Assembly (NCBI GenBank): GCA_018819105.1
Contig: JAHJQV010000061.1
Location: 1-50,685 of the forward strand
Direction: 5' to 3'
DNA length: 50,685 nucleotides
From: Gammaproteobacteria bacterium
GTDB taxonomy: Bacteria; Pseudomonadota; Gammaproteobacteria; Xanthomonadales; Wenzhouxiangellaceae
Shown: one piece after another, positions 5,825-32,027 of the stretch
Layout: each line of letters opens with the position of its first letter
How positions within the stretch are numbered: position 1 is the stretch's first letter
The notes under the pieces: generated by a model
The model's input: the letters and a program-made list of their open reading frames with translations, nothing else
What the model was told of the DNA's origin: nothing
Database searches by the model: none
Translations under genes and position numbers: made by a program

Positions 5825-5864
5825 ATAATCTCTGCTGCTGGTGCGGGCTTCTGGTGTTACTGAC

Positions 5865-5893: not shown

Positions 5894-5924
5894 AGATGCA
5901 ATCCTAAACCTGAGAACCACCGCT

Positions 5925-6704: not shown

Positions 6705-6740
6705 ACAACAGCCACTGCTGAACGATCCGCAGGCAATAAC

Positions 6741-6770: not shown

Positions 6771-6795
6771 ATGCTTTTGAACTGGGGTTGCGGGC

Positions 6796-7242: not shown

Positions 7243-7313
7243 GATTGAATCTCCCGGATAGTCTGCGCAGGTGTCCCTGCAATTGGTAGACTGTAGCAAA
7301 TTGGATTTCATCA

Positions 7314-14209: not shown

Positions 14210-15018
14210 CCGAAATCATCGCCATCGCCAATCAGAAAGGCGGGGTGGGTAAAACCACCACCACCATCAATCTTGCGGCCGCATTGCAACAGATGCGCAG
14301 CCATGTGCTGGTGTGTGATCTCGATCCCCAGGGCAATGCCACCGTGGGTCTGGGGGTGGAGGCAGACGATTACCAGCACAGTGCCTGTGAGCTTTTGCTG
14401 CAGGAGTGTCAGTTTGACGAGGCGGTGTGTTCGCTGGCAGCAGACGACAGCAAGTACCGGTTTGATCTGGTGCCGGCCAACAATGACCTGACCGCAGCGG
14501 AAATCGAGCTGACCCGGCAGTCCGGCTGTGAAACCAGACTGCGTGACATACTCCGCCAACTGCCGGAGCGACGCTACGATTTCGTGCTGCTGGACTGCCC
14601 GCCGGCACTCAATCTGCTCAATCTGAATGCGCTCACCGCCGCCGACAAGGTGCTCATACCCATGCAGTGCGAGTACTTCGCCATGGAAGGCCTGACCGCG
14701 CTGCTGAACACCATCCGGCAGATTAAGGACAGCGTCAATCCAGGGCTGAAGATCGAGGGCATTCTGCGCACCATGTATGACGTGCGCAACAATCTGTCGC
14801 TGCAGGTGTCCCGGCAATTGGCCGAACACTTTGGCCCGCAGCTGTATCGCACCGTGGTGCCGCGCAATGTGCGGCTGGCAGAGGCACCCAGCTTTGGCGA
14901 AAGCATCATCAGCTATGATGCCGATTCGCGTGGCGCCATTGCCTATCTTGGCCTGGCCGGGGAGTTCCTGCGCCGGCGCCAGACAACGGCAGAAACCGCC
15001 GCGACCACCGCACCTTAA
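14206..15018 (+). CDS. parA: Chromosome-partitioning ATPase ParA/Soj
   Basis: A 270-residue ParA/MinD-type ATPase. The deviant Walker A KGGVGKTTT lies at about residues 11-19, with the invariant first Lys. CDLDPQGNAT follows (Walker A' region), and then FVLLDCPPAL (Walker B). ATP-dependent dimers bind DNA non-specifically and move ParB-parS complexes. The first residues MTEIIAIANQKGGVGKT match chromosomal Soj, which lacks the N-terminal DNA-binding domain of plasmid ParA. It is translationally coupled to rsmG by a 4-base overlap and is followed by parB after 28 bases. Confidence 0.93.
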   Translation: MTEIIAIANQKGGVGKTTTTINLAAALQQMRSHVLVCDLDPQGNATVGLGVEADDYQHSACELLLQECQFDEAVCSLAADDSKYRFDLVPANNDLTAAEIELTRQSGCETRLRDILRQLPERRYDFVLLDCPPALNLLNLNALTAADKVLIPMQCEYFAMEGLTALLNTIRQIKDSVNPGLKIEGILRTMYDVRNNLSLQVSRQLAEHFGPQLYRTVVPRNVRLAEAPSFGESIISYDADSRGAIAYLGLAGEFLRRRQTTAETAATTAP

Positions 15019-15046
15019 AGATCGCGCGCAAGCTCACGAGCATCTC

Positions 15047-15973
15047 ATGGCAAGCAAGAAAAAAAGCATCAGCAAACAGACCACGCCGCGCAGCAGCAAG
15101 CGCAACGCGCTGGGACGTGGTCTCAGCGCCATGCTGGCGCGCAGTGAAGCCGAGCAGCGGCAGCAGGATCAGGCCAATCTGCGCGAGTTGCCGGTTGATC
15201 TGATCCAGCCGGGCCGCTATCAGCCGCGCACGGTCATGGACCCCGACAAACTCCAGGAGCTGGCCGATTCCATTCGTGCCCAGGGCATGGTGCAGCCGAT
15301 CATCGTGCGTCCGATCACTACCGACAGCTATGAGCTGATCGCCGGTGAGCGACGCTGGCGTGCGGCGCAACTGGCCGGTCTGCAGGTGGTGCCGGCGGTG
15401 ATCCGTGATGTCAGCGATGAGGTCACCGTGGCCATGGCGCTGATCGAAAACATTCAGCGCGAGGATCTCAACCCGCTGGAAGAGGCCGGCGCATTGCAGC
15501 GCCTGATTCATGAGTTTGCCATGACCCATGAGCAGGCCGGCAAAGCCGTGGGGCGTTCGCGCGCTGCGGTGAGCAATCTTCTGCGCCTGCTGGAGCTGGA
15601 GCGGGAGGTGCAGCAGCTGGTCAATCAGCGGGCTCTTGACATGGGGCATGCGCGCGCGCTGCTGGCCCTGCGAGGTCAGGCGCAGATTGCAGCGGCCAGG
15701 CACGTGGTCAGCAAACAGCTGTCGGTGCGCGCCACCGAGCAGTATCTGGCCGGGCTGGCCAGCAACGCCGGCACCGGCAATGGTCAATCCACGCGGCGGC
15801 AGTCCGCGCAGCCGGATGCTGACACCCGCAGGCTGCAGCAGCAGTTGACCGAGCAACTGGGCGCACCGATCCAGATTCGCCACCAGTCCGGCGGTGCCGG
15901 CAAGCTGATCATCAGTTATCACAGCCTGGACGAGCTGGACGGCATCATCGAGCGCATCACTGGCAAGCACTGA
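15047..15973 (+). CDS. parB: Chromosome-partitioning protein ParB/Spo0J
   Basis: A 308-residue ParB. It has a basic N-terminus with KRNALGRGLSAML, the ParA-stimulating region; PVDLIQPGRYQPRT; the CTPase/ParB-box motifs YELIAGERRWRAAQLAG and ENIQREDLNPLEEA; the helix-turn-helix THEQAGKAVGRSRAAVSNLLRLL; and a C-terminal dimerisation segment after a Gln/Ala linker. ATG 15047 is chosen because the basic N-terminus matches the family; the open frame reaches back to 14777 only by overlapping parA. ParB loads on parS and spreads as a CTP-dependent clamp. I found no complete parS (TGTTTCACGTGAAACA-like) site in the window. Confidence 0.93.
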   Translation: MASKKKSISKQTTPRSSKRNALGRGLSAMLARSEAEQRQQDQANLRELPVDLIQPGRYQPRTVMDPDKLQELADSIRAQGMVQPIIVRPITTDSYELIAGERRWRAAQLAGLQVVPAVIRDVSDEVTVAMALIENIQREDLNPLEEAGALQRLIHEFAMTHEQAGKAVGRSRAAVSNLLRLLELEREVQQLVNQRALDMGHARALLALRGQAQIAAARHVVSKQLSVRATEQYLAGLASNAGTGNGQSTRRQSAQPDADTRRLQQQLTEQLGAPIQIRHQSGGAGKLIISYHSLDELDGIIERITGKH

Positions 15974-16027
15974 CCTGGCCTGAACACAGTGCTGTGCTGA
16001 TGCTGGCGGCTATGGTTTCAGCGCAGA

Positions 16028-16050
16028 GTTCAAGTTATACTATAGGGCTG
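16028..16050 (+). promoter_or_regulatory. Probable Zur box overlapping the L31 promoter
   Basis: GTTATACTATA (16034-16044) matches the core of the gammaproteobacterial Zur operator (GTTATA-N-TATAAC) at all positions except the last two bases of the right half (GG instead of AC). The TATACT within it (16036-16041) also looks like a -10 element, 32 bases before the rpmE2 ATG, so repressor binding would occlude RNA polymerase. Zur control of cysteine-free L31 genes is established in other bacteria. Use here is inference. Confidence 0.55.
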
Positions 16051-16073
16051 TTTACTCAAATTGGTTCACAACA

Positions 16074-16319
16074 ATGAAAGCTGATATACATCCGGTGTAC
16101 CGACCGGTGGTGTTCCAGGACACTTCTTCGGACTTTTCCTTCATCACCCGATCCACGATCAAGACCAAGGAAACCATCAAGTGGGAAGATGGTAACGAAT
16201 ATCCGCTGGTGAAGCTGGACATTTCCAGCGCTTCGCATCCGTTTTACACCGGCAAGCACAAGGTGGTGGATTCCGGTGGACGTGTGGACAAGTTCAAACA
16301 GCGCTACAGCCGTTCCTGA
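16074..16319 (+). CDS. rpmE2: 50S ribosomal protein L31 type B
   Basis: An 81-residue protein with the conserved type B start [16 protein letters not shown] and SFITRSTI, followed by [31 protein letters not shown]. It contains no cysteine at all, so it is the zinc-independent paralog that can replace the zinc-binding L31 under zinc limitation and let cells recover the metal. A Zur-box-like sequence overlaps the promoter region, in agreement with that role. It stands alone; a non-coding stretch of 555 bases follows. Confidence 0.95.
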
Positions 16320-16874
16320 GCTGGGCTGGCCGCACCGGGCGTGTTCCGCTGCGGATTGCCTGTCAGAGTAATGCTCCAGCTCCTGATCCCGGGTCAGGAT
16401 GCTGCTTGTGATGAGATCGCGAGCAGCAACGAGCCATCACCAAACCCTGCCAGTCCAGCTGCTGAACCTGCTCACGGCGCAAGTCTGCAAGCAGAGCTGC
16501 TTTGCTCGGGTCTGAAGCGCTGTTGGCCTGATCCGATTGCGCATCGCAGCAGCGCTGTGTCGGGCCCGGCAATCATGGCATGACATCATCGGCTGATGAT
16601 GAGGGATCTGTCCGTACTGTTGACGTCTGCCTGTGGTGCTGATGCACAGACTGTCATCAGGCTGTGGCAGACTGCGGTCGCACCATATGCGCTGCTGCTG
16701 GCGATGGCCCGCTGGCTTAGTCATCAGCGGCTCTGCGACACAGCGCTGACGCAGAGCCAGGCGAGGCGGCTGCAGGGTGGTGAATCCGCCAGATTCAGGC
16801 AGCCAGCCAGCATCGCTTCGGCTTCGGCTGGCAGCCCGCAGATCCATCTCTGAACATCTTTTAGGAGTAACAAC
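16320..16874. other. Non-coding stretch between rpmE2 and gltA
   Basis: I see no supportable gene here; the reading frames on both strands lack family resemblance and normal composition. Visible structure is limited to small palindromes. These are TCCTGATCCCGGGTCAGGA at 16381-16399, a CATCA/TGATG hairpin near 16584-16601, and a perfect 9-bp stem GGCTCTGCG/CGCAGAGCC at 16729-16758. The gltA ribosome-binding site AGGAG lies at 16863-16867. No clear sigma70 promoter is evident by eye. Confidence 0.5.
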
Positions 16875-18164
16875 GTGAGCGATAAGAAGGTCAACATCAC
16901 CGATCCTGCCAACGGCAAAACGCTTGAACTCGCCGTGCACACCGGCTCTTGTGGCGATCCGGTACTGGACATTTCCTCGCTGCACAAGGAACTGGGTTAC
17001 TTTACCTACGACCCGGGTTTCTCGGTCACAGCCAGCTGTTCCAGCGAGATCACCTTTATCGACGGTGATCAGGGCATCCTGCGCTATCGCGGCTATCCGA
17101 TCGAGCAGCTGTCAGAACATTCCAGCTACATTGAAGTGGCCTACCTGCTGCTGTACGGCGAATTGCCGTCACCGGCGGAGTTTCGCAAATTCGAACACGA
17201 CATCACCCACCACACCATGGTGCACGACAAGCTGAACACCTTTCTCAAGGGGTTTCGCTATGATTCACATCCGATGGCGATCATGGCCGGTGTGGTGGCC
17301 TCACTGGCCGGTTTCTATCACGACGATCTCGACATCAAGGATGCCGAAGAGCGCGATCTGACCGCCAAGCGACTGATTGCCAAGATGCCGACCATTGCCG
17401 CTGCGGCCTATCGCCATCACGTCGGCTGGCCGACCGCCTATCCGCGCAACAGCCTCAACTACACCGAGCGTTTCCTGGACATGATGTTTTCGGTGCCGGC
17501 GGAACCCTACAAGATCAATCCGGTGGCGGCACGGGCGCTGGATCTGCTGTTCATTCTGCATGCCGATCACGAGCAGAACGCCAGCACCTCCACCGTGCGC
17601 CTGGTGGCCAGCACCGGCGCCAATCCGTATGCCTGTGTCTCGGCCGGGATCGCCGCACTTTGGGGCCCTGCCCACGGCGGTGCCAATGAGGCGGTGCTGG
17701 ACATGCTCAACGAGATCGGCAGTGTTGAGCATGTCGGCGAATACATCGCCAAAGCCAAGGACAAGAACGATCCGTTCCGGCTCATGGGCTTTGGACACCG
17801 TGTCTACAAGAACTTCGATCCGCGTGCGCAGATCATTCGTCAGGCCTGCCATGATGTTCTGGACGATCTCGGGATCAAGGATCCGCTGCTGGATCTGGCC
17901 ATGGAGCTGGAAAAGATCGCGCTGGAAGACGATTATTTCGTCGAGAGAAAACTGTATCCGAATGTGGACTTTTATTCGGGCATCATCTACAAGGCGCTGA
18001 ACATTCCCACCAGCATGTTCACGGCGATGTTTGCCATCGCCCGCACCTCCGGTTGGGTCGCACAGTGGCTTGAGCAGAGTGCCCAGGGCGGCCGCATTGG
18101 CCGTCCGCGTCAGCTCTACACTGGCGCAGCCGAGCGCGACTACCGGGCGATCGATAAACGCTGA
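16875..18164 (+). CDS. gltA: Citrate synthase, type II
   Basis: A 429-residue citrate synthase that condenses oxaloacetate and acetyl-CoA to citrate at the entry of the TCA cycle. Active-site segments are present: [14 protein letters not shown] (substrate His), [14 protein letters not shown] (catalytic His and Arg) and [12 protein letters not shown] (catalytic Asp). The length and N-terminal beta-domain ([39 protein letters not shown]) fit the hexameric, NADH-sensitive type II enzyme of Gram-negatives. The start is GTG with AGGAG 7-8 bases upstream. It stands alone and is preceded by the long non-coding region at 16320. Confidence 0.97.
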
Positions 18165-18214
18165 GAAAACTGCGACACAAGTCCTGTTTGTGCCGGGTTA
18201 ATAGGAAGGAGCCA

Positions 18215-18286
18215 ATGCCGGTCACATTCAGGCACGGTGTGCCCATTGGCCAAACCTGGACAAAATCCTGGCGTCACAGCGCGTGA
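18215..18286 (+). CDS. Possible 23-codon small ORF with strong ribosome-binding site
   Basis: ATG 18215 is preceded by AGGAAGGAG (18203-18211), one of the strongest Shine-Dalgarno-like stretches in the window, although it ends only 3 bases before the ATG. The ORF encodes 23 residues (MPVTFRHGVPIGQTW then TKSWRHSA). It overlaps a hairpin with arms GCCAATG (18211-18217) and CATTGGC (18244-18250) enclosing GGCAC/GTGCC, so the start codon could be sequestered. It may instead be only the 3' structure of the gltA transcript. There is no family recognition. Confidence 0.2.
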   Translation: MPVTFRHGVPIGQTWTKSWRHSA

Positions 18287-18338
18287 CCAAATCCACTTGT
18301 ATCGCTCAATGGCGAGCCCTGCGGACGCTTTCAGGCAA

Positions 18339-18935
18339 TCATCCGCAGCCTGATTCCAGCAACCGCTGCAGCTGATCCATGCTCACCCGTCGCTGGGGCT
18401 GGCCGTCAATCGGGCTGGGTGGTGCCTGGCGCAGATCGATGCTGTTGAATAGACACAGTTCACAGCCATGCCCACGCCACTCAATGTTCAACACCTGAAT
18501 GTTGCGGTATGCATTGAGATACCAGCGCAGCCGCCGTTCCGAGGTCGAAAAGGGCAGTTTCAGGTCGAGCAGCAGACGCACCATGTCATCGGGATTGTCA
18601 CTGAACACATGCAGCGTGATGCTGCTGTGCTGATCGGCGGTTCCCTCCAGTACCGGGCCGACTAGACGTGGGCGCAGACTGGCGAAATGCTGCATGATCT
18701 CCAGTGCCAGATGCTGCAGAGTCTGCAGCTGGCGGTCATGGTCGGCGATGAATAGCGTCTGATAGGTGCGCAATTGCTGTTCGATTTCATGGTTGCTGGG
18801 CAGGTGGCGTGTGGCAGCCATGCCCAAGCGCTCGGCGGCCTTGCGCTTGGCGGTGCCATAGTTTTTCTGGCCTTCGTGAACAATGATGCGCGCAGCTTCC
18901 ACTGCGATCGCCTGGCGTTGGTGCTTTGCCTGCAT
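18339..18935 (-). CDS. Conserved hypothetical protein (nucleotidyltransferase-like)
   Basis: A 198-residue cytoplasmic protein of a family found in many gammaproteobacteria without an established function. The N-terminus (EAARIIVHEGQKNYGTAKRKAAERLGM) and LPSNHEIEQQLRTYQTLF are characteristic. The middle has PRLVGPVLEGTADQHSSITLHVFSDNPDDM, which reads like the active-site strand region of a nucleotidyltransferase-like fold, followed by ERRLRWYLNAYRN. Homologs are sometimes mislabelled as UDP-N-acetylmuramate-alanine ligase; no Mur ligase motif is present. It starts at ATG 18935 and is divergent from the sigma-factor gene, sharing a 364-base intergenic region with it. Confidence 0.75.
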   Translation of the reverse strand: MQAKHQRQAIAVEAARIIVHEGQKNYGTAKRKAAERLGMAATRHLPSNHEIEQQLRTYQTLFIADHDRQLQTLQHLALEIMQHFASLRPRLVGPVLEGTADQHSSITLHVFSDNPDDMVRLLLDLKLPFSTSERRLRWYLNAYRNIQVLNIEWRGHGCELCLFNSIDLRQAPPSPIDGQPQRRVSMDQLQRLLESGCG

Positions 18936-19299
18936 GACGGTTGTGCTGATGTGATGATGAGTTCTGCTTCAGTGCGGCCAGCTCGCCGCCGTGAGGCGAC
19001 TGTGCATGATGCTGTGGCCCGGTGCCGCCCGGCATTTCCGTTGCTTCTTCATAGACAGTAACATTGTTGTTTCATCCGCGCCATGGTCATGGCAAAACAG
19101 CATCAGCAATGCTACCTCATCGATGGTGGTAATGACCTTGCCATGCATGAATGAGTATCATCATCATGCTGGTGTCGGCATCTCGTGACTGCGAGCATGA
19201 CTGGCGGGATACTCCACAGCGTCGATCTTCACATACATGATAGACTTGTTCACTCAATCGTTGCCATACTCGTCTTGACCAGGGAAGCAGGGACAGCAA
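18936..19299. other. Divergent intergenic region before the sigma-factor cassette
   Basis: These 364 bases must hold the promoters of the leftward hypothetical gene and the rightward sigma factor. I see no gene. TAGACT (19241-19246) and CATACT (19265-19270), 18 bases apart, are a weak sigma70-like pair 30 bases before the TTG start of the sigma gene. No GGAA(C/T)-type ECF promoter was visible, so autoregulation of the sigma gene is not evident from the sequence. Confidence 0.4.
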
Positions 19300-19893
19300 T
19301 TGCCTGAGAAGATTCATAATAATAGTGAGGCCGCTGACATCGTTGCGAGAATCGGTGCCGGTGACCCCAGCGCCGAAAAAGCATTGCTGGACAAGTACTT
19401 TCAGCCGATGCTGGCATTGCTGCGCTTTCGCTGCCATGAGCCCGCCGTGGCAGACGATCTGTGCCAGGAGACCTTCCGTATCGCCATCGAGCAGCTGCGT
19501 GAGAAGCCGATGGACAACCCGGAGGCGCTCGGTGGCTACATCCACCAGATTGCCATGAATCTGTTCATCAATGAGTTGCGTCGTTCCGACAGGCAGAAAA
19601 CCAGCCCGGATCTGGACAGCATCGAGCGCCAGGTTGGTGAACAGCTGTCGGCCTACGATCTGATCCAGCAGCAGCAGTCAAAAATTGCCGTGGAGACGCT
19701 GCTGGCCACATTGAAAACACCGCGTGACCGGCAAGTGCTGCGGCTGTTCTATCTGGCTGAGCTGGACAAAAGTGAAATCTGCGCCCGACTGAATCTGACC
19801 CCTTCGCATTTTGACCGTGTCATCTATCGGGCCAAGCAGCGCCTGCGCGAGCAGCTGGAAAAAAATCGCGAAACTGGTGAGAGAAATCTGTGA
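19300..19893 (+). CDS. ECF-type RNA polymerase sigma factor
   Basis: A 197-residue sigma factor with region 2 (LLDKYFQPMLALLRFRC..., the DDLCQETF core-binding motif, GGYIHQIAMNLFINELRR for -10 recognition) and region 4 (LKTPRDRQVLRLFYLAELDKSEICARL, with NLTPSHFDRVIYRAKQRLRE as the recognition helix). It lacks regions 1 and 3, as ECF factors do. The start is TTG 19300 with GGGA about 8 bases upstream; no ATG fits. It heads a four-gene rightward group. The next gene encodes an anti-sigma-like membrane protein 67 bases downstream, so it is probably held inactive at the membrane until a signal arrives. Confidence 0.9.
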   Translation: MPEKIHNNSEAADIVARIGAGDPSAEKALLDKYFQPMLALLRFRCHEPAVADDLCQETFRIAIEQLREKPMDNPEALGGYIHQIAMNLFINELRRSDRQKTSPDLDSIERQVGEQLSAYDLIQQQQSKIAVETLLATLKTPRDRQVLRLFYLAELDKSEICARLNLTPSHFDRVIYRAKQRLREQLEKNRETGERNL

Positions 19894-19904
19894 GTCACAT
19901 GTCA

Positions 19905-19945
19905 TTAGAGACCGTAAGCATGTGGCTCATGGACGAGCCCTCTAA
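19905..19945 (+). promoter_or_regulatory. Hairpin in the sigma/anti-sigma spacer
   Basis: GGCTC/GAGCC (19924-19928 and 19935-19939, loop ATGGAC) is extended by TTAGAG (19905-19910) pairing with CTCTAA (19940-19945) across a 13-base bulge. It ends just upstream of the AAGGA ribosome-binding site of the next gene (about 19954-19958). It could influence relative expression of the two genes. This is inference from sequence symmetry only. Confidence 0.3.
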
Positions 19946-19960
19946 CTTCAGGTAAGGATT

Positions 19961-20836
19961 ATGCAGCACTACGAAGCACAAATTGATGCGTACGTACGGG
20001 GAAAACTTTCTCCCGCTGAACAGTCTGCGCTGGAAGTGGAGATTCTGGAAAACCCGGACATGCTTATGGAGTTCGAGATGGCTGTCGCCATGCGCAAGGG
20101 TGTACAGCAGCTCGATACCCCGTTGGTTAAGGAAGTGAAGTCCAGCTATTGGTGGCAGCCATGGATAGGCAAACCAATGGTGACAGGGGTAACGATGGCC
20201 GTGGCCGTTGTTGCTTTGGTGCAGTTGGCTTCACTTTCCAGTCGCGGTGATCTGAGCAAGGACGATCAGATGCCGTCGGCGCTTTCTGCCAACGTACCGA
20301 TCCTGACCTTCTCCAGAATTCGCTCGGCTCGTGAAAACACCGATTTCTCGGTGGTCGTGGACAAGGATGCTATCCAGTCCGGGCTTGCGGTTCTGGAGCT
20401 CGAGATCGACTGGCCGCCTCAGCCTGCCTATGAGGTGACGATTGCCGCGCAGTCCCAGACCGGTAACGATCGTGTGCAGACGCCACTGGCTCGTGCGGCT
20501 CAGCAAAGTGCTGATGCCCGTATCCAGGACGTCAGGCAAGATCAACATGCATCCACTGTAGACTTCAAGCCACAAACCCTGTTGCTCAATCCCGATGCCC
20601 GCGGTTACCTGGTCATGGCGATGCCTGCCAGTCAGCTTTCTGCGGGCGATTATGTCATAAGCATCAATCCGGTGACGGGTGATCAGGCTGCTGTGCCAAC
20701 GAATCCTGAGTCGGTAGACTCGGCAATGACAATGCAGCAGTCGGTGGCAGACAACACATCCAACAACAGGGAAGTTACAGCCCAGCAGGACCAGTCACAA
20801 CAGATATACACCCTGCGCGTCAAATCCGCGAATTGA
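19961..20836 (+). CDS. Anti-sigma-factor-like single-pass membrane protein
   Basis: A 291-residue protein. Residues 1-50 are helical and charged (IDAYVRGKLSPAEQSALEVEILENP), the same layout as the N-terminal sigma-binding domain of anti-sigma factors. The His-x3-Cys-x2-Cys zinc motif is missing and there is no cysteine at all. Residues 73-92 form one membrane helix (PMVTGVTMAVAVVALVQLAS). The remaining 200 residues are probably periplasmic, with an all-beta segment (DFSVVVDKDA..., LAVLELEIDWPPQPAYEVTI, YLVMAMPASQLSAGDYVISI) that resembles a sensor or binding domain, then a Ser/Gln-rich stretch. AAGGA lies upstream of the ATG. Position after the ECF gene supports an anti-sigma role, which is inferred. 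Confidence 0.75.
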   Translation: MQHYEAQIDAYVRGKLSPAEQSALEVEILENPDMLMEFEMAVAMRKGVQQLDTPLVKEVKSSYWWQPWIGKPMVTGVTMAVAVVALVQLASLSSRGDLSKDDQMPSALSANVPILTFSRIRSARENTDFSVVVDKDAIQSGLAVLELEIDWPPQPAYEVTIAAQSQTGNDRVQTPLARAAQQSADARIQDVRQDQHASTVDFKPQTLLLNPDARGYLVMAMPASQLSAGDYVISINPVTGDQAAVPTNPESVDSAMTMQQSVADNTSNNREVTAQQDQSQQIYTLRVKSAN

Positions 20837-20883
20837 AGCTCCGTTTCAGACCATCTTCGCCAAACCATTTCGAGGATTCGACC

Positions 20884-21480
20884 ATGACGCTTACCAAGTC
20901 ACTTGCACCAAAGCAATTGAAGGTTTTTTTTTCTGCTTTTAAGTCTGCCGTTTTTGCCCTGACCGCAACGCTGATTGTCACCGGAGTGATAAGTCCCGGT
21001 GCCATCATCGCGGTATCCATGGCAAACGATGCCGTCCCTGTGCACAGTTGTGACACTGACTATACAGAAACCTGGATTGTGGGCCAGAGCTGCTTTGTCG
21101 GGCTAAGTGTCGACGTACAAACCGATGATGCCATTCATGTCAGCTGCAATGCCGACAATGAGTACAGCATTGCCTTTTTCGTCGAGCCTGCTGGGATCGA
21201 TCCTGCCACCAGCAATGCCATCCAGCATGATGTCTGTCCGGGCAATGGCTACATCACGACCAATGTTGATGGCGAAGAAGTATTGCGCTGCAATTTCTGG
21301 GAGTCAACCGACAATGTGGCCAAGCAGATCGATATCCAGTTGGAACCAGCGGCCTATGGGGAGACTGGACGCAGCATGGCGTGGAAAGTCAGCGAACTGG
21401 ACAATCCCAATGTGGTGTGTGGTGTCAGCGGTCGTCCCGGTGAAGAGGGTGATACGGCTGGCAGTGGTCACACCTCCTGA
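20884..21480 (+). CDS. Small exported Cys-containing protein of unknown function
   Basis: A 198-residue protein I do not recognise. The N-terminus is basic, then strongly hydrophobic (FALTATLIVTGVISPGAIIA), with a probable cleavage after SMA at about residue 46. The mature part has six cysteines spread through it (SCDTD, SCFVG, SCNAD, VCPGN, RCNFW, VCGVS), which suggests disulfides and a periplasmic or extracellular location. ATG 20884 is chosen because GAGGA precedes it; the in-frame TTG 20833 would overlap the upstream stop. It lies between the anti-sigma-like gene and the TPR-CHAT gene and is probably a partner or substrate in the same system (inference). Confidence 0.65.
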   Translation: MTLTKSLAPKQLKVFFSAFKSAVFALTATLIVTGVISPGAIIAVSMANDAVPVHSCDTDYTETWIVGQSCFVGLSVDVQTDDAIHVSCNADNEYSIAFFVEPAGIDPATSNAIQHDVCPGNGYITTNVDGEEVLRCNFWESTDNVAKQIDIQLEPAAYGETGRSMAWKVSELDNPNVVCGVSGRPGEEGDTAGSGHTS

Positions 21481-21509
21481 GTGAGGCCATGATCTGGTGG
21501 GGTGAAAAC

Positions 21510-24500
21510 ATGAACAACAATAAATTGATACCATCCATACCCACAGCAACGCGTGTGCATCAATGGCTGATGCTGGCACTGATCGTTACTGGCACATCCG
21601 TTGCCGCCACTGTCGAAGCCGGTGACGGCAGCAGCGTTCGGCTGAACAATCAGGTCGAGCAGAGTCTTGATCTGCGCGGTGGCGAGAGCATCGAACTCGA
21701 CATCCCGGCCCATGGCCGGTTCCTGCTGATTCAGAACGTGGGCATAGACAGCATCGCAGAGCTGCGTGACCAGAGCGACAATGTGCTGACTTCTGCGGCA
21801 AGTTGGCGCGGTATGGAAGGGCGGTATGTTCTTGATCTACGTCAGTCCCTTGATCCGGCTGGGGTTGTCATCAACACGAATCAGCATACGCGCAACGGCA
21901 ATGTGTCTCTGCGTTGGTTGGATGAGCAGTCATTGAGTGAGCAGGCAGTGCAGGCGTTGGCACTTTGGAGTCGGGCGGCCGATCTGCACCTGCAGGCATT
22001 GCATGGCGATGCCAGTCGACGGGATAGTGCCATAGTGGCATATAAAAAATCCGCTCAATCAATCCGCACAACCGAGCTGGCGAATTTCCAGGCTGATTTG
22101 CTCTATGAAATTGCCCAGGCTCAGCGCGCGGCTGGTGACCTTGAGCTAGCCCAGGCCAGCTTTATCCAGGCGCTGGCAGCCTTTCAGACACTCAAGGATA
22201 CATCAGGTATTGCCTTTACCTACAACGCTCTGGGCCGAACCGCCAGAAGCCGCGGCAATCTGGCTGAGGCCGAGCGCCTGTATCAGCGCAGCCTTGCGGA
22301 AAGACAACGACTGAGCGATCAAGACTCTCCTCACGATGCGCTGTATCAGGCCATCACGCTGAACAACATCGGCATTGTCAACCTTGAGCAGGACAAATTC
22401 GATCTGGCCAGCACTGCATTCAGCCAGGCACTGCCAATGCTTGCCGGGATTTCCGGTCAGACAGTTGATGCCGTGCTGGGCATGACGGCAGCAGAGATCG
22501 GTGAGCGAGGTGATCTGTCCGAGACAGTCAACACCATGAACAATCTCGCTGTGGTCAAGGCAGCAGTTGGGCAGGTGGGTGAGGCCGCGCTGCTATACGA
22601 ACGCACCATGCAGCTGGCGACGGAGACCAATCAGGTCAAACGCGTGGCCGATGCGCACTTCAACATCGGTCGCCTGCTGCTTGATCTGGGCCAGCTGGAT
22701 GCCTCATTGCGGCATCTTGACAGCGCCGCAGCCATCTTTGCCGATCTGCAGAACGACTTCTGGTACGGCCAGACATTGGAGTGGATTGCCAACATCTACA
22801 ATGCCGTTGGTGAGCATGCCACAGCCGAGGAGTATCTGACCCGTGCGCTGGCGCTAAGTGGAGAAAACCAGCGCCAGCGTGCCAATGTGCTGGGTCGCCT
22901 CGGGCAGGTTGATTATCAGCAGGGTGCACTGGCCAGCGCCGATGACTATTTTTCCCAGTCCTATGACAGCTTTGCTGGCAGTGGCCAGCCAGGTTCGGCT
23001 GCTGTGGTGGCCAGCAAGCATGCTCTGGTGAGCATGGCTCAGGGTGACACCGATGCCGCACTGCGCAAGCAGCGTCAGGCCATCGATGCCCTGGCAAAGC
23101 TAGGTCAGCCTCGCGAACTCGCCAGAGCCAGATACAGACTGGGCATGCTGCTGCTTGAAGCCGGCGACAGTGCGGCCGCTGAACGCGAACTGACTGCCGC
23201 ACTCGCCGGTCACCGCGCTGTTGACGATCAGCTTTTCGAACTCGATACCCTGGTTGCACTGAGCAGTGTGCGCAGTGGTCAGGCGGCACTGGATGCCATA
23301 CAGGATGCTGCCACGCTGGCGTCTTCCATCCGGCTGCACACCAGAGCGCCGCAACTTCAGACCAGTTTCATGACCAGTCGTCGCAATGCATTCGGACAGT
23401 ACATTGATCTGCTGGTGGCGGCTGACAGGATTGAGGATGCCTGGGCAGTCAGTGAGCACATCCGCGCGCGCAGTCTGCTGGATCTGATTGCAGACAAGGA
23501 CAATGTCATCAGCAGTGATGCTGCCTTGCGCGAGCGTCGCGATACCATGCTGGAGTCGCTTGCAAGCAGCCAGGACACTATGCAGTCGCGACAGTTGCGT
23601 CGGCAGATTGATCTGCTGGAAAGTCGCATGCGCGATGGCATGACCATGGACAACATGGTCGAGTTCCATCCCGACGCCACCTCATTGCAGGCAGCCCTGG
23701 CAGACGATGTATTGATGGTCAGTTATTTTCTTGGCGATGCTCACAGTCATCTGTGGCTGGTCAGTGAAGACGATATTCGCCACATTGAGCTGCCATCTGG
23801 TGCTGATATCACTGCCAATGTGCACGCCTTGAGTGACGCTCTGCGCAGTCATCGACAATCACCGTCGCGGATCGAATTCATGGCAGCCCGTCTGCGCGAG
23901 CAGATTCTGCCGCTGGATCACAGCGTGCTCAGCGACAAGGAACTGGTGGTGGTCGCCGATGGGGCGCTGCAAATGGTGCCATTTGAACTGCTGCCGCTGT
24001 CCGACAATACCTTGCTGATGGATCGCAGCACGGTCATCTATACCCCGTCAGCACGACTGTTTGCCATGCTCGATCAGCAGTTCACCATCAACCCCAGCAG
24101 CATCGCGGTGCTGGCCGATCCGATGGCTGACCGCAGCAACATGCTGGCTATGCATGATCAGCCGGGAGTCGGTGCCGGCAACTTGTTCGCGCAGCGGGCA
24201 CTGAGCCAGTCAGCGATCAATGTTGATCGTCTGCCGGGTGCACAACAAGAGGCGAGAGCGATTCAGGAAAAGGTCATGGCAGGACACTCTGCTGTGTCTC
24301 CCATCAACCGCATCAGCATGGTCATCGGCAGTGAAGCCAGTCGTGACCATGTCACCACCGGCGGTCTCCAGGGTTTTGGCATTCTGCATTTCGCCACCCA
24401 TGGGGTGGTTGATGCGGATATACCGGAATTGTCTGGGCTGGTGGTATCGGGCGACCAGCTGAATGATGAAAAGATCAGTTATCTGCGCCCCCATGACATT

Positions 24501-24923
24501 GCCCAACTGCAGCTTGATGCCGATCTGGTTGTACTCAGCGGTTGTGAAACCGGCATCGGTAAATCACTGGCTGCGGAAGGACTGATGAGTCTGACCCGGC
24601 CGTTTTTTGTCGCCGGGGCAAGACAGGTGGTATCAAGCCTGTGGAAAGTCTCTGATCAGGCCACGGCAGCACTGATGGAGCATTTCTACACCCACCTGCT
24701 CGATCATCAGCTGCCGGCAGAGAAGGCATTGCAGCGAGCCAAAGACGATATGCGTGCCGATCCGCAGTGGCAGCATCCCTATTTCTGGGCCGGGTTCGTC
24801 ATTCAGGGCGGTCGTGCCCGGCAACCGAGTGAAACCATGACTACCGAGCAGCCGCCGGTGAGCAGTGTTGCCGCACGTCAAACCCATTTAGGAGCAGTGC
24901 TGATGGGGACTTCCAGCCCCTGA
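21510..24923 (+). CDS. Exported TPR-CHAT domain protein (putative caspase-like peptidase)
   Basis: A protein of about 1137 residues. The N-terminus has a basic start and hydrophobic core (WLMLALIVTGTSVAA), read as a signal peptide, followed by a beta-rich segment (residues 45-140). An array of TPR units fills about residues 190-560 (for example YNALGRTARSRGNLAEAERLYQ). The C-terminal 350 residues form a CHAT domain, the caspase-like clan CD peptidase fold. The predicted catalytic dyad is intact: His964 in LHFATHG and Cys1012 in VVLSGCETG, followed by the typical GLMSLTRPFFVAGARQVVSSLWKV. ATG 21510 has TGGGGTGA upstream; ATG 21489 is an in-frame alternative with a poorly spaced site. It ends the sigma/anti-sigma cassette. 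Proteolysis is predicted, not shown. Confidence 0.88.
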   Translation: MNNNKLIPSIPTATRVHQWLMLALIVTGTSVAATVEAGDGSSVRLNNQVEQSLDLRGGESIELDIPAHGRFLLIQNVGIDSIAELRDQSDNVLTSAASWRGMEGRYVLDLRQSLDPAGVVINTNQHTRNGNVSLRWLDEQSLSEQAVQALALWSRAADLHLQALHGDASRRDSAIVAYKKSAQSIRTTELANFQADLLYEIAQAQRAAGDLELAQASFIQALAAFQTLKDTSGIAFTYNALGRTARSRGNLAEAERLYQRSLAERQRLSDQDSPHDALYQAITLNNIGIVNLEQDKFDLASTAFSQALPMLAGISGQTVDAVLGMTAAEIGERGDLSETVNTMNNLAVVKAAVGQVGEAALLYERTMQLATETNQVKRVADAHFNIGRLLLDLGQLDASLRHLDSAAAIFADLQNDFWYGQTLEWIANIYNAVGEHATAEEYLTRALALSGENQRQRANVLGRLGQVDYQQGALASADDYFSQSYDSFAGSGQPGSAAVVASKHALVSMAQGDTDAALRKQRQAIDALAKLGQPRELARARYRLGMLLLEAGDSAAAERELTAALAGHRAVDDQLFELDTLVALSSVRSGQAALDAIQDAATLASSIRLHTRAPQLQTSFMTSRRNAFGQYIDLLVAADRIEDAWAVSEHIRARSLLDLIADKDNVISSDAALRERRDTMLESLASSQDTMQSRQLRRQIDLLESRMRDGMTMDNMVEFHPDATSLQAALADDVLMVSYFLGDAHSHLWLVSEDDIRHIELPSGADITANVHALSDALRSHRQSPSRIEFMAARLREQILPLDHSVLSDKELVVVADGALQMVPFELLPLSDNTLLMDRSTVIYTPSARLFAMLDQQFTINPSSIAVLADPMADRSNMLAMHDQPGVGAGNLFAQRALSQSAINVDRLPGAQQEARAIQEKVMAGHSAVSPINRISMVIGSEASRDHVTTGGLQGFGILHFATHGVVDADIPELSGLVVSGDQLNDEKISYLRPHDIAQLQLDADLVVLSGCETGIGKSLAAEGLMSLTRPFFVAGARQVVSSLWKVSDQATAALMEHFYTHLLDHQLPAEKALQRAKDDMRADPQWQHPYFWAGFVIQGGRARQPSETMTTEQPPVSSVAARQTHLGAVLMGTSSP

Positions 24924-24986
24924 TGCGAATTGGTGGTCTGTCGTTGCATTGACAGCTGCCTGACAACAATCTGGAAAGTGGCACTG

Positions 24987-25013
24987 ACCCGTCCGCGAGG
25001 ACGGGTTTTTTTT
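24987..25013 (+). terminator. Rho-independent terminator after the CHAT gene
   Basis: ACCCGTCC/GGACGGGT with a GCGA tetraloop and a run of nine Ts (two of them in the stem). It closes the sigma-factor cassette 63 bases after the CHAT stop codon. Confidence 0.92.
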
Positions 25014-25074
25014 GGCTGCGAAAATGTCCTCGCATCGGCTATGATGGATCTTTATCCAGACCGTGAGCCGATCC

Positions 25075-26385
25075 ATGAACCTACCTGTCCGACTTCTGCT
25101 TATAGCCATCCTGATGACCCCGCCTGTGGGCATCCAGCAGGCCAGCGCGCAGCCTGATCACGCCCATCTGGACAGCCTTGCTGCCGATGCCTATACCCAG
25201 GTCGTGCAATGGCGGCGGCATTTTCATCAGTATCCGGAGTTGTCCAACCGCGAATTCGAAACCGCAGCCACCGTGGCCGAGGCATTGCGTGACATGGGAC
25301 TGGAGGTGACAACCGGTATCGCTCACACCGGCGTGGTGGCGCTGCTCAAAGGCGGCAAGCCCGGGCCTTTGGTGGCCTTGCGCGCTGACATGGACGCGCT
25401 GCCGGTGACGGAACAGGTGGAACTGCCGTTTGCATCCAATGTGACCACCGAGTATCAGGGCAAGCAGGTCGGCGTCATGCATGCCTGCGGACACGATACC
25501 CACATGGCCATGCTGTTGGGTGCAGCGCGGGTACTGACGGCGGTGCGCGATGAGCTTCCTGGTTCTGTGCTGTTCATCTTCCAGCCAGCAGAAGAAGGCG
25601 CACCACTTGGTGAGGAGGGCGGTGCCGAACTGATGCTCAAGGAAGGACTGTTCGAGCGTTATCGGCCGCAAGCCGTGTTCGGCATGCACATCGGCTTGAA
25701 CATGCCGGGTGGTCAACTGGCGGTGCGGCCGGGTCCGGCAATGGCGGCGGTGGACTATTTGCAGATCAATGTGGCAGGACGTCAGACCCACGGTGCCCGC
25801 CCCTGGGGCGGCATCGACCCGATCGTGGTGGGCTCGCAGATCGTCATGGGGCTGCAGACCATCGCCAGTCGTCAGCTGAACCTGACCAAAGTGCCCTACA
25901 TCATCACCATAGGCAAGTTTGATGCCGGTGTGCGCAACAACATCATCCCGGACATGGCGGAAATGCACGGCACCATCCGCAGTTTTGATGCCGCAATGCA
26001 GGACGACATGCATGCGCGCATTCGCAGCACCGCCGAGCACATTGCTGCCAGCGCCGGAGCCAGCGCCGAGGTGAACATCATCAAACAGTATCCGGCCACG
26101 GTGAATGACCCGGCACTGACCGCGCAGATGCTGCCGAGCTTACAGAGGGTCTCGGGTGAACAGCCGGTGGTCACGCCGGATCTGGTTACTGGCGCTGAGG
26201 ATTTTGCCTTTTTTGCCCGGGAGGTTCCGGGGGTGTTTGTCTATCTGGGCGCAGCGGCTCCAGGCGAGCAGGCCAGCGAACTGCCCAGCAACCACTCACC
26301 ACTGTTTGCCGTGCATGAGCCGAACATGGCCCTGGGCGTCAGAGCCTATGTGCATCTGGCGGTTGATTATCTGGCACAGCACTGA
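25075..26385 (+). CDS. Exported M20D family amidohydrolase
   Basis: A 436-residue metal-dependent amidase/peptidase of family M20D (hippurate hydrolase, N-acyl-amino-acid and IAA-amidohydrolase group). A signal peptide (LLLIAILMTPPVGIQQASA) indicates a periplasmic location. Metal and catalytic motifs are in order: RRHFHQYPELSNREFET, RADMDALPVTE, MHACGHDTHMAMLLG (Cys/His metal ligands), QPAEEG (catalytic Glu), the dimerisation domain with GRQTHGARPW, then TGAEDFAFFAREVPG and NHSPLF. Substrates in the family are N-acylated amino acids or small peptides; which one here is unknown. ATG 25075 starts the signal peptide; GTG 25063 is an alternative. TATGAT at 25040-25045 may be its -10. Confidence 0.9.
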   Translation: MNLPVRLLLIAILMTPPVGIQQASAQPDHAHLDSLAADAYTQVVQWRRHFHQYPELSNREFETAATVAEALRDMGLEVTTGIAHTGVVALLKGGKPGPLVALRADMDALPVTEQVELPFASNVTTEYQGKQVGVMHACGHDTHMAMLLGAARVLTAVRDELPGSVLFIFQPAEEGAPLGEEGGAELMLKEGLFERYRPQAVFGMHIGLNMPGGQLAVRPGPAMAAVDYLQINVAGRQTHGARPWGGIDPIVVGSQIVMGLQTIASRQLNLTKVPYIITIGKFDAGVRNNIIPDMAEMHGTIRSFDAAMQDDMHARIRSTAEHIAASAGASAEVNIIKQYPATVNDPALTAQMLPSLQRVSGEQPVVTPDLVTGAEDFAFFAREVPGVFVYLGAAAPGEQASELPSNHSPLFAVHEPNMALGVRAYVHLAVDYLAQH

Positions 26386-26463
26386 GGTCAGCGGACGGCT
26401 TTGTGGGACAGCATGCCGGCAACATCGCCGACAGGCTGTGAGTGAGCAGCAGCATGGCGATGG

Positions 26464-27873
26464 TCAATCAGACTCTGATCGCCGCAAGCGCAGACCAGCT
26501 GCAAACAGCAGGGCGATGCCCAGCAGCAACAAAGCGGCGACATTGAGCACAGGCACTGCCGCTGGCGGCGGCAGCGGCAGGGCATCGTCGCCCAGGTTGC
26601 GCGCAAACAGGTAGACCAGACCGGCCTCATCCAGACCATTGTCGGTGGCGTCGTCGGCACCGACGGCAATCAGGTTTTCGGCCACGCCTATGGCGCGTCC
26701 AAAGCTGGACTGCGCCTGTGCTGCGCTCGCAAACAGCTTGTCGGTGATGCTCCAGTTGCCGGCTGCATCGCGCTCCAGCACATAGGTGGCACCACTTTCG
26801 CTGGCATTACCGGTGGCAAACGGGGCACCCACTGCAGCCAGATCGCCACTGGCGGCGACGGCAGCGCCGAGCTGGTCACCACCGCTGGCATCATCGGCCA
26901 GCAACTTCTGTATCTGCAGCCACTGATCGTTTGGCTGGCGCTGAAACACATAGATGGCACCACGGTTGCTGATGCCATCGGCATCATGGCTGGTGGCAGT
27001 GACGATGGCCTGCATGCCGGCAGCATGCGGGGACAGTGTGATGGCGCTGCCAAAACCGTCAAAGGCGGCACCATCAGCAGCGACCAGATCCTGCACCAGC
27101 GTCCAGTTGTTGCTGCCATCGCGCTGCCAGACCTGGGCCTTGCCCTGGAAAAAATTGTCGCCCACACTGGCCCGGGGTGAGCCAAGCACAGCGATGTCAT
27201 CGCGCACGGCAATGCCGGTGCTGTAGGCTTCGAACGGCTGGCCGTCGGGATCCAGCAGCTTGCCATCCTGCTGCCAGCTGCCATTGCTGAATGAATAGAC
27301 GTAGCCGGCACCCTGGTCGATGCTGTCGCCATCGGCCTGGATGGCACCGCCGAGTATGCTGACGCCGTCACTGGACAGGGTGGTGCCCAGTTCGTCGAAC
27401 GTCAGCCCATCGTCGGCGGTCAGCGCGGCAGACTCCTGCCAGACCCCGGCGATGAGATCATACACGTAGAGCACGCCCTGCCATTCGTTGCCATCCACGT
27501 CGGCGCGCATGGCACCTACCACTGCCATGTCATCGATGATGGCAACCGAGGCACCGAAGCGGTCATCTTCGGCACCATTGCTGGCGAGCAGGGTCTGCGT
27601 CAGTGTGACCTCGCCGCCGGGCGAGATGGCATACAGATGGGCGTTGCCCTGCATGATGTTGCCATTGACGCTGGCAAAGCGCTGACCGATCAGCAGATTG
27701 CGCTGATCCAGGCTGACAGCACCACCAAAATTGCTCACTGCTTCAGCGGTCGGGCTGCTGAGCACCTGCAGTTCCCGCCAGTCTTCCGGCGCGGGGTCTC
27801 CGGCATACAACACGTCGGCGTGCAGCCAGGTGGCAGAAAGCAATGCGGTAACGAGCATCTTGTGCATGGTCAT
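26464..27873 (-). CDS. FG-GAP propeller protein with IPTL-CTERM-like tail
   Basis: A 469-residue exported protein. It starts with a short signal peptide (MLVTALLSATWLHADVLYAG). At least six FG-GAP-type repeats follow, with the pattern FG-A-x-hydrophobic...hydrophobic-VGA (FGASVAIIDDMAVVGA, STGIAVRDDIAVLGSP, LGAAVAASGDLAAVGAP, FGRAIGVAENLIAVGADD), giving a seven-bladed propeller. The tail is proline-rich, then AAVPVLN, a hydrophobic helix and RLRR. This is the arrangement of an IPTL-CTERM-type sorting signal, although the motif reads VPVL. Start ATG 27873 has GGAG 8 bases upstream; ATG 27867 is also possible. It converges on the M20D gene and probably sits at the outer surface. Confidence 0.8.
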   Translation of the reverse strand: MTMHKMLVTALLSATWLHADVLYAGDPAPEDWRELQVLSSPTAEAVSNFGGAVSLDQRNLLIGQRFASVNGNIMQGNAHLYAISPGGEVTLTQTLLASNGAEDDRFGASVAIIDDMAVVGAMRADVDGNEWQGVLYVYDLIAGVWQESAALTADDGLTFDELGTTLSSDGVSILGGAIQADGDSIDQGAGYVYSFSNGSWQQDGKLLDPDGQPFEAYSTGIAVRDDIAVLGSPRASVGDNFFQGKAQVWQRDGSNNWTLVQDLVAADGAAFDGFGSAITLSPHAAGMQAIVTATSHDADGISNRGAIYVFQRQPNDQWLQIQKLLADDASGGDQLGAAVAASGDLAAVGAPFATGNASESGATYVLERDAAGNWSITDKLFASAAQAQSSFGRAIGVAENLIAVGADDATDNGLDEAGLVYLFARNLGDDALPLPPPAAVPVLNVAALLLLGIALLFAAGLRLRRSESD

Positions 27874-27996
27874 CTCGGCAACTCCGTTTGCCAGATTGTA
27901 GCGGATGATTGTAGGGAAAAGTTAAGTCCAGTGCGATCATCGCACAGCGCATGGCTTGCTGCGCTGCGAGCAGCTGCGCAGGCACTGTGTCGAAGG

Positions 27997-30180
27997 CTAC
28001 GAATCGCTCATCAAAGCCGCATAGTGCTGCGCCTCATCCAGCGGGGGATACAGAGGGGAGGTGACAAAAGCCCGCTGCATGCCGTCCTGCCAACTGAGTC
28101 CGAGCGTGTGCAACAGTCCACTGATGCTTTGTTCCGGGTCAGCGAACAGGCTCTGACGATCCAGCTCAATGATGCGCAATTGCAGCGTCTGTCTTGCCTG
28201 CAACCATTGGCGCTGTTGCAGTTGCCACAGTGAGGACATGGTCTCCAGGTCGGCGAAACCGGACCAGTGCCAGCTTAATTGCAGGGCGTTGATGTCGGCA
28301 TTGAGCATGATCACCGTGGCTTCCGGAAACAGCCGTTGAATGGCCAGCAGACCCTGCACCGGCAGCGTCATGCCGTCGATCAGCGGCTTCTCCGGATGGC
28401 GTCCGAGTTCCTGTACCACGCGCTTTTTATAGCCCTGGCGTTTGCCCATCCAGTCGGCTTCGGCAAGCGCTGACAACAGCTCCGGGTCGCGCGGCCAGGT
28501 CAGATGACGCTGCCGCTCCAGCATCGCCCCGTAGGCCAATGGCGACTGATCGGCCTGCAGTGGACGATCCAGCAGGCAGTCCAGTTCGCTGTGAGAGTGC
28601 AAGGCCTGCAGCAACTCGCGTCGACCGCTGCCTGGCCAGCCGAGCACAAACACTGGCCGCAGACGTACACCACCCGGTGCCTGCGGTGGCCAGGAGAGAA
28701 TCACATCGGCATCGAACAACGACTCCGGTGTGGCGGTGGTTTCCGGCAGCAGCTCACTGCTTTCGGGTTGTGGGTTGTCATTGATGGCATCGATGATGCC
28801 GGCTTGCTGGCGCGGCAATTCATCGAGCAACTGCAGAACCTGCGCATGGTTCGATTGCTGATGCTGCAGCCGCGCGCGCAGCTGAATGACCGCACGCAAC
28901 ATGTCTTCGGGCAGTTCATCGTGTACGGCAAGCTGTTGCAGATTCTGATCCTGCTGCGCTGCCGCCACGGCATCGGCATCGCCGGCCAGCAGCTTCAGGG
29001 CATCGGCCATGCAGCGCAGCCATTGGGCTGGTAATTGTGCCTGCTGTCGCTGGCTCAGCTGGTTCAGGCAGCGGTGGGCCGCATCGGCTTGACCATGGGC
29101 CACGGCAGCCTGAGCCGCCAGCAGATACTCTTCGTCGTCGCCATCTGTCTGCAACTGCTGGCCCAGCCGATGGGCGTCAGCAAAGCGCTTGCTTTCCAGA
29201 TAGGCACGCAGCAATAGTCGCTGGGCCTCCCGGTCACCGGCCGGGCACTGCTGCAGGGTGCTGATGCTTTGCTGCAGACGGCCCGAGCGCAGCTGGGCAG
29301 TGCCGAGCAAACGCAGAATGGTCGGTTCGCCCGGCTCTTCCTGGCGGGCTTTACCCAGCAGATGCAGCGCCTTGTCGATCAGGCCGGCATGCAGATACGA
29401 CTGCGCCGCGCGCACCAGTATCATGGGTTCAGTGTGACCATTGGCCAGCAGATCACGCCAGATCGCCAGTGCCCCGGCATGGTCGCCGGACTGCTCCAGG
29501 GCCTCGGCGTGCCAGACGTTGAGTTGCGGTTCTTTGGCGTAGGCACCGCGCTGCAAGCATTTGGCGTTTTCGAAGCAGCGCATGGCAAACCCTGCCTGGC
29601 CGCCGCGCAGAAAGGCATGTCCCAACTGGGTCTGGGAATACAGATCGTCGGGATTCAGATCCACCGCCTGCTGCAACCAGGTCTGTGCCTGTTGCGGCTG
29701 CTCGCGCTGCAATTCAATGACGCCCATGTGGGCACAGATGGTGGCCTCGGTCTCGCTGTCGTTGTTGACCGCCCGCCGGGCGGTGCGCAGACTCTGTTCG
29801 GCTTCCTCCAGCCGGCCCAGTGTCAGCAGTGCATAGCCATGTCCCAGCCAGGCCTTGGCTTCATTGGGACTCAGCGTGGTGGCTTCCTGGTAGTTGTCCA
29901 GTGCGGCCTGGAACTGTCCCATGCGCATGCGCAGACCGCCCATGGTGTAATGAAACATGGAACTGCGCGGCTGCAGTGCAATGGCCTGCTGCAGGCAGTC
30001 TGCAGCGGCATCCAGACGCCCCTGTTTCTGTCGACACAGCGACATCATATAGAGCAATTCATGGTTCTCGGGTTCCTGCTCCAGCATGCGCGCATACAAG
30101 GCGTGGGCGGCCTCATAGTTGCCGTTCTGGTAATAATCGAGTGCCTGTTCCAGGGACTGTTCGGTGAGTGATTCATTCAT
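27997..30180 (-). CDS. TPR protein with degenerate sulfotransferase-like domain
   Basis: A 727-residue protein. Residues 1-470 are consecutive tetratricopeptide units (for example DYYQNGNYEAAHALYARML, AWLGHGYALLTLGRLEEAE). From about residue 505 the sequence follows the TPR-sulfotransferase family: FVLGWPGSGRRELLQALHSH corresponds to the PAPS 5'-phosphosulfate loop, and LFPEATVIMLNADINALQLSW to the 3'-phosphate site. Both are altered: PRSGTT has become PGSGRR, and the Arg-Asp-Pro of the second site is absent, so catalysis is doubtful. ATG 30180 overlaps the last 8 bases of the YheT gene, indicating coupled translation. Its role is unknown; substrate binding or scaffolding is possible. Confidence 0.75.
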   Translation of the reverse strand: MNESLTEQSLEQALDYYQNGNYEAAHALYARMLEQEPENHELLYMMSLCRQKQGRLDAAADCLQQAIALQPRSSMFHYTMGGLRMRMGQFQAALDNYQEATTLSPNEAKAWLGHGYALLTLGRLEEAEQSLRTARRAVNNDSETEATICAHMGVIELQREQPQQAQTWLQQAVDLNPDDLYSQTQLGHAFLRGGQAGFAMRCFENAKCLQRGAYAKEPQLNVWHAEALEQSGDHAGALAIWRDLLANGHTEPMILVRAAQSYLHAGLIDKALHLLGKARQEEPGEPTILRLLGTAQLRSGRLQQSISTLQQCPAGDREAQRLLLRAYLESKRFADAHRLGQQLQTDGDDEEYLLAAQAAVAHGQADAAHRCLNQLSQRQQAQLPAQWLRCMADALKLLAGDADAVAAAQQDQNLQQLAVHDELPEDMLRAVIQLRARLQHQQSNHAQVLQLLDELPRQQAGIIDAINDNPQPESSELLPETTATPESLFDADVILSWPPQAPGGVRLRPVFVLGWPGSGRRELLQALHSHSELDCLLDRPLQADQSPLAYGAMLERQRHLTWPRDPELLSALAEADWMGKRQGYKKRVVQELGRHPEKPLIDGMTLPVQGLLAIQRLFPEATVIMLNADINALQLSWHWSGFADLETMSSLWQLQQRQWLQARQTLQLRIIELDRQSLFADPEQSISGLLHTLGLSWQDGMQRAFVTSPLYPPLDEAQHYAALMSDS

Positions 30181-31150: not shown

Positions 31151-31177
31151 ACTGCCATTATCCCGTAAACCGGCCGT

Positions 31178-31987: not shown

Positions 31988-32027
31988 GCAGTTGCCGAGC
32001 GACGACGAGCGCAGTGTCTCACCCTGC

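Follow-up and report, generated by a model that had tools for sequence, protein, structure and literature searches.

A cassette of four genes, found on a 50,685-nucleotide contig of a gammaproteobacterium of the family Wenzhouxiangellaceae (JAHJQV010000061.1, assembly GCA_018819105.1; this whole stretch is called the window below), encodes an extracytoplasmic function (ECF) sigma factor (SIG), a membrane protein resembling an anti-sigma factor (ASF), a small six-cysteine protein that looks exported (CYS) and a caspase-like protease, likewise of exported appearance, with tetratricopeptide repeats (TPRs) and a CHAT domain (CHAT). The cassette is a real four-gene unit that recurs in related gammaproteobacteria. 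We favour, with somewhat less than even confidence, its interpretation as an envelope-signalling sigma factor module, in which CHAT would act as a periplasmic protease that cuts ASF to free SIG. The source genome comprises 3.14 Mb in 68 contigs, and the window is its contig C56. The original prediction, made from the letters of the window and its open reading frames (ORFs), described four same-strand genes closed by a terminator. We found the four ORFs exactly there, all on the + strand between 19300 and 24923 in the order SIG-ASF-CYS-CHAT, and behind them a stem (24986–25007) with a T run:

19300..19893, + strand: SIG, ECF sigma factor with Pfam and NCBIfam matches; TTG start
19961..20836, + strand: ASF, zinc-less single-pass anti-sigma-like protein; modelled helices 2–51, transmembrane (TM) helix 76–94 and beta domain 114–288
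20884..21480, + strand: CYS, small exported-looking protein; low-confidence, barrel-like model of eight strands, six invariant cysteines, C-terminal tail containing Gly and Ser
21510..24923, + strand: CHAT, exported-looking TPR-CHAT caspase-like protease; alternative start 21489, from which the dyad is His971/Cys1019
24986..25013, + strand: terminator-like site closing the cassette
25063..26385, + strand: hydrolase of the M20 family whose start resembles a signal peptide; next gene 3' in 4/4 complete cassettes

The complete gene order was conserved in three further genomes, one of the same genus (L038) and two of one other genus (L039 and L040). This recurrence, together with the co-occurrence of ASF and CHAT across the order (see below), shows that the cassette is more than a chance arrangement. 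Among 41 genomes (that of the window and 40 relatives), CHAT protein matches, TPR-only ones included, were present in 30 and ASF matches in 5; CYS was matched in 4 genomes at strong E-values and in 13 at E up to 1. With the CHAT profile, 3 genomes of a class-wide sample of 369 were found at E 1e-90, including that of the window, and 11 of 43 genomes of the family at E 1e-40. A contig scan for relatives found one, in the metagenome-assembled genome OFTM86. The M20 hydrolase gene behind the four complete cassettes, from two genera, is 75–83% identical to that of the window, where it lies beyond the terminator-like stem; at E 1e-10 it was present in none of the other loci among 64 searched, and its membership of the system is uncertain. 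The gene pair had been expected to occur without CRISPR, and indeed the direct repeats reported for 14000–32000 included no CRISPR-like array, being two-copy pairs. No RNA family exceeded the threshold in the window. The cassette was also considered as a defence system and rejected as such: PADLOC returned two generic TPR models for CHAT and no model for SIG or ASF, and CYS matched E1-E2 marginally (E 0.0073).

SIG (197 amino acids) matched Sigma70_r2 (E 3.5e-8) and Sigma70_ECF (E 1.8e-6) above the Pfam cut-offs and the NCBIfam model sigma70-ECF at E 2.8e-20 (72.6 against a cut-off of 42.9); its region 4 (r4_2) stayed just under the Pfam cut-off (25.3 vs 25.7). With regions 2 and 4 only and about 200 amino acids, it is an ECF sigma factor. 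Its homologue in L038, 82% identical, begins at the same TTG start.

Zinc-binding (zf-HC2) anti-sigma factors are marked by an HxxxCxxC zinc motif. ASF, predicted to be a single-pass protein lacking cysteine, has 291 residues, no cysteine and one hydrophobic stretch near residues 71–94. No Pfam family exceeded its cut-off, and the search against sequences of solved structures gave three insignificant matches. A sub-threshold zf-HC2 match (E 0.15, residues 4–25) was seen at its N-terminus, as in 4/10 homologues; since this match is only sub-threshold and cysteines are missing, ASF does not qualify as a zinc anti-sigma factor. The structural model consists of three N-terminal helices (block means of the predicted local distance difference test, pLDDT, 83–97), the TM helix and the beta domain. 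A single TM segment after a helical domain, encoded beside a sigma factor gene, corresponds to a membrane anti-sigma factor, and residues 1–58 align weakly with the anti-sigma factor RslA (3hug; Z 6.4, root-mean-square deviation 4.7, 58 aligned residues, 24% identity). The model agrees with the single-pass architecture proposed for ASF. The only other anti-sigma factor among the best 50 matches of each ASF fold search was ChrR (2q1z), a weak match (Foldseek E 0.29, rank 44, listed without its aligned range). Both RslA and ChrR bind zinc. In L056, the TM protein at the ASF position keeps HxxxCxxC, and its counterpart in L052 keeps only the His of this motif, which suggests that the zinc site was lost from a zinc anti-sigma ancestor, loss being the presumed direction of change. 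For the beta domain, the fold matches were of a generic kind, with phage baseplate proteins as the best (Z 8.9), and we drew nothing from them.

CHAT contains TPRs and a PF12770 domain (E 4.9e-60, 203.9 bits vs a cut-off of 24) with a His/Cys dyad, and is therefore a CHAT peptidase. The dyad was originally numbered His964/Cys1012, which applies to the ATG at 21510. Searched with a simple pattern, 40 of the 56 CHAT ORFs showed the His motif and 41 the Cys motif; when the last 480 residues were aligned, both residues were present in 56/56. We looked for loss of the dyad and saw none, so CHAT appears to be maintained as a protease. Among the best 60 of 184 matches to solved structures, all were TPR proteins. 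The probable signal peptide noted earlier agrees with our reading of the N-terminus by eye, and a crude hydropathy check gave a strongly hydrophobic N-terminal stretch in 42 of the 56 ORFs, truncated and mis-started ones included.

For CYS, the ORF list starts at 20833; by reading, the best start is 20884, giving 198 amino acids. Its N-terminus likewise looks like a signal peptide, and the six cysteines are invariant in 8/8 aligned homologues, in keeping with the small exported six-cysteine protein proposed initially. No Pfam or NCBIfam family was found at E up to 1, and there were zero matches to sequences of solved structures. A low-confidence model (mean pLDDT 60, 8 sequences) predicts eight antiparallel strands and a C-terminal tail whose pLDDT is very low. 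Its fold matches are mostly calycin-type barrels (FABP/CRABP, (strept)avidin) and lie below the reliable range: the best Foldseek E was 8e-3, and via VIA the best Z was 7.6 (BF2706), with streptavidin at Z 7.1 (root-mean-square deviation 3.7, 91 aligned).

To follow the association beyond the complete cassettes, we compared 44 CHAT loci, i.e., the window and 43 fetched ones. In 23 of them, SIG as well as ASF lay no more than 4 kb from CHAT, in operonic, convergent (L049, L057, L077, L086, L090) or divergent orientation (L091, from another order of the same class). These varied orientations indicate that the link is more than co-transcription. L052 and L056 additionally encode a SIG-like protein and a TM protein that the profiles used both missed, and several contigs stop inside the neighbourhood (e.g., L046, L048, L051). 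For the order as a whole, we used 151 genomes sampled evenly out of a larger group. Of these, 42 had ASF matches (56 in total) with a profile built from 22 sequences, and 67 had CHAT matches (132 in total) with PF12770. CHAT was present in 41/42 ASF genomes vs 67/151 overall (hypergeometric 5e-18), and in 23/24 ASF genomes (3e-11) after removal of the 18 genomes from which training sequences came; these figures ignore kinship and, since the genomes are related, are not strict probabilities. The one ASF genome without a CHAT match (G048) carries beside SIG-ASF an ORF that is truncated where the contig stops and does not match the CHAT profile. ASF lay within 8 kb of CHAT in 36/56 cases and, without 21 matches on training contigs, in 15/35. 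We inspected 10 of the 20 CHAT-distant matches: L097, L098 and L101 are at contig ends, and in L099 an ORF beside SIG-ASF scores 70.9 bits to the CHAT profile. In all 20 further ASF loci inspected, SIG adjoins ASF. In G093, the two proteins co-occur although unlinked: the sole ASF match of this genome is on C3 and its sole CHAT match on C6.

In the mechanism we favour, ASF would tether SIG to the inner membrane. The N-terminus of ASF would be an anti-sigma domain that no longer has its zinc site, and the beta domain at its C-terminus would face the periplasm. The exported TPR-CHAT cysteine protease and its own small exported partner CYS would form a proteolytic unit. Activation in the periplasm, for which CYS or the TPRs are the presumed route, would let CHAT cut the exposed part of ASF, and further steps as for RseA, possibly by the RseP-family protease encoded in the genome, would then release SIG. 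ASF is nearly always accompanied by CHAT, while an ASF match is missing from 26/67 CHAT genomes, a pattern to be expected if SIG-ASF requires input from CHAT. The rarity of ASF without CHAT, whether linked or not, also fits CHAT as a step that ASF needs.

CYS and CHAT also occur as a pair of their own. In five loci (L005 and L006 in the window genome, L041, L042 and L043), CYS is beside CHAT in every case, neither SIG nor ASF was found within 4 kb, and the ASF profile had no match on those contigs; two of the loci, L041 and L043, border contig ends, the latter with a truncated CYS. Their CHAT proteins, with the dyad kept, form one clade (support 0.986), which sits in a joint clade (1.0) with the four SIG-linked proteins; as a group of their own, the latter are poorly supported (0.209). 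Since CYS accompanies CHAT in 5/5 of these loci, it seems to be the steadier partner of CHAT and the better partner candidate in this closest sigma-less clade. In four of the five, the element TTGRCCGYGCARGGAG is present about 180 bases 5' of CYS. A search of four genomes gave four exact matches in three of them, all at sigma-less loci; with one mismatch, two more appeared in G008 and none in G001 (locus cut), and the reversed control gave one match. The element occurs together with a second conserved stretch around TTGCGCGTC:

L005, 10800–11080: upstream element TTGRCCGYGCARGGAG and stretch around TTGCGCGTC
L006, 10398–10680: the same two stretches
L042, 8937–9240: the same two stretches
L041, 860–1160: the same two stretches

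No Rfam family exceeded the threshold in these four loci.

At other CHAT loci, the small neighbours are different proteins, some with a Gly-rich tail, and ten that we scanned had no Pfam or NCBIfam match over the cut-off. In the discovery set, on which the tail criterion itself was defined, 23/41 same-strand small ORFs adjoining CHAT had such a tail vs 4/204 other ORFs. The enrichment was absent in a second, more distant set of 20 loci (1/8 vs 2/80, p 0.25), where the sole positive, in L110, resembles a spurious ORF. The tail was thus rejected as a universal mark of small CHAT neighbours; it is apparently limited to part of the tree. L079 and L081, from another genus, have CHAT with a small Gly-tailed neighbour and no adjoining SIG-ASF; L081 carries two tandem small-protein/CHAT pairs of this kind (481–7627). 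In L112, two small ORFs 3' of CHAT (9028–9979) end in the near-identical tails SHDGTIHPIP and SHDGTIHPVP.

Several observations weigh against CHAT as the input protease for SIG. CHAT had been expected to accompany the sigma and anti-sigma genes, and this holds only in part: ASF was detected within 8 kb of 35/132 CHAT matches and not of the other 97 (the profile misses forms like those of L052 and L056), and of the four CHAT genes in the window genome (three besides that of the cassette) two are without SIG and ASF. A use that does not depend on sigma, or a sigma factor shared in trans, would fit the persistence of CHAT-CYS where ASF is missing, and the retention of CYS and the dyad in the sigma-less clade implies that CHAT can function in some settings with no ASF linked to it. 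The small CHAT neighbours of L077, L079, L081 and L086 have no signal peptide by eye and so fit badly with a purely periplasmic reaction. The 44 loci were picked by similarity, with SIG-linked proteins among the CHAT queries, the RslA match is under the caution level of the tool for helical folds, and a crude search for an exact two-block promoter motif (5+4 bases, gaps of 14–19) 5' of 47 SIG genes gave counts like those of shuffled sequences.

A close rival, which we consider possible, reverses the direction: ASF would sense the envelope in another way and free SIG, which would transcribe cys-chat and perhaps the M20 hydrolase gene, and CHAT would cut, mature or be regulated by CYS, with ASF not being a substrate. 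The sigma-less clade, in which CYS-CHAT is kept and four loci share TTGRCCGYGCARGGAG, speaks for this arrangement, as do the very low pLDDT of the CYS tail, the Gly-rich tails of the discovery set and their presence in L079 and L081. However, SIG-ASF is without CHAT more rarely (41/42 genomes have both) than expected for a mere regulon member, the tail enrichment was not repeated in the second set, and the missing promoter motif counts against SIG-driven output as well.

It is less likely, and compatible with either direction of signalling, that CYS is a sensor or brake, i.e., a ligand-binding barrel that holds CHAT inactive until a ligand or a disulfide change frees it, much as RseB shields RseA. 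The barrel-like model, the six invariant cysteines and the constant position beside CHAT within the clade would suit such a role, but the confidence of the model is low and its fold matches are below the reliable range. Ordinary co-location of ECF genes with exported CHAT proteins of separate functions, with no proteolytic link, is improbable: CHAT genes are indeed numerous and mostly without a detected ASF nearby, but the association spans genera and orientations and extends to unlinked genes (G093).

RpoE/RseA/RseB with DegS and RseP is the envelope stress system of E. coli. The cassette resembles it in combining an ECF sigma factor, a single-pass anti-sigma-like protein without zinc ligands, a putatively periplasmic beta-rich partner and a putative envelope protease, and the RseP family is present in the window genome. 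It differs in encoding its own CHAT cysteine protease in place of DegS. ASF had no RseA match and CYS no MucB_RseB match (Pfam, E up to 1), so neither belongs to these families; a separate RseB-family gene lies on C62.

According to one report, the TPR-CHAT protein Csx29 cuts Csx30, an inhibitor of an ECF sigma factor (CASP-sigma) (PMC10028731). The systems share a TPR-CHAT protease with a His/Cys dyad that is genetically tied to an ECF sigma factor and its inhibitor; in contrast to Csx29, which as described there is part of an RNA-guided complex (PMC10028731), the protease here has an exported appearance, and a membrane protein takes the place of the inhibitor. Identification of CHAT as Csx29 itself was rejected (NCBIfam NF041237, 18.4 bits vs a cut-off of 300), and because of this distance the Craspase parallel drawn in the original prediction is reduced to a loose functional one. 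Of that interpretation, the cassette, the dyad, the exported appearance and the architecture of ASF stood; the closeness to Craspase was weakened, as was in part the expected pairing of CHAT with SIG and ASF. For ECF54, one source describes CHAT-domain proteins in the gene neighbourhoods, with a Geodermatophilus example, and proposes proteolytic control without an anti-sigma factor (PMC8999054). The cassette is similar in its conserved genetic context and the proposed proteolysis, and differs in that an anti-sigma-like membrane gene adjoins the sigma gene. Since both reports link CHAT to ECF factors, this link is not new (PMC10028731, PMC8999054). We found no description of the cassette in the literature searched, which left out most subscription papers; as far as these searches show, the combination of an exported-looking protease, a zinc-less membrane anti-sigma factor and a small disulfide-type protein is new.

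Elsewhere, the window encodes two large Sortilin-Vps10/BNR-repeat proteins (224–3466 and 45756–49058) and, on the - strand, a protein with TPRs and a sulfotransferase domain (27997–30432).

The cassette may represent a new route by which a signal from outside the cell reaches the genes. More speculatively, and with more doubt than confidence, it could stand for a group of envelope sigma systems of gammaproteobacteria in which a periplasmic caspase-like CHAT, gated by a small barrel protein, makes the first cut in zinc-less membrane anti-sigma factors, without CRISPR. If the association across the order is functional, control of ECF sigma factors by CHAT proteases would be more widespread and would operate from outside the cytoplasm. 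Exported bacterial caspase-like proteases would gain two concrete candidate substrates, ASF and CYS, and the natural contrast between sigma-linked and sigma-less CYS-CHAT loci in one genome makes the question testable. Craspase is the precedent for one CHAT protease acting on a sigma factor inhibitor; if our interpretation is true, caspase-type proteolysis would also serve as a transcriptional signal across the envelope.

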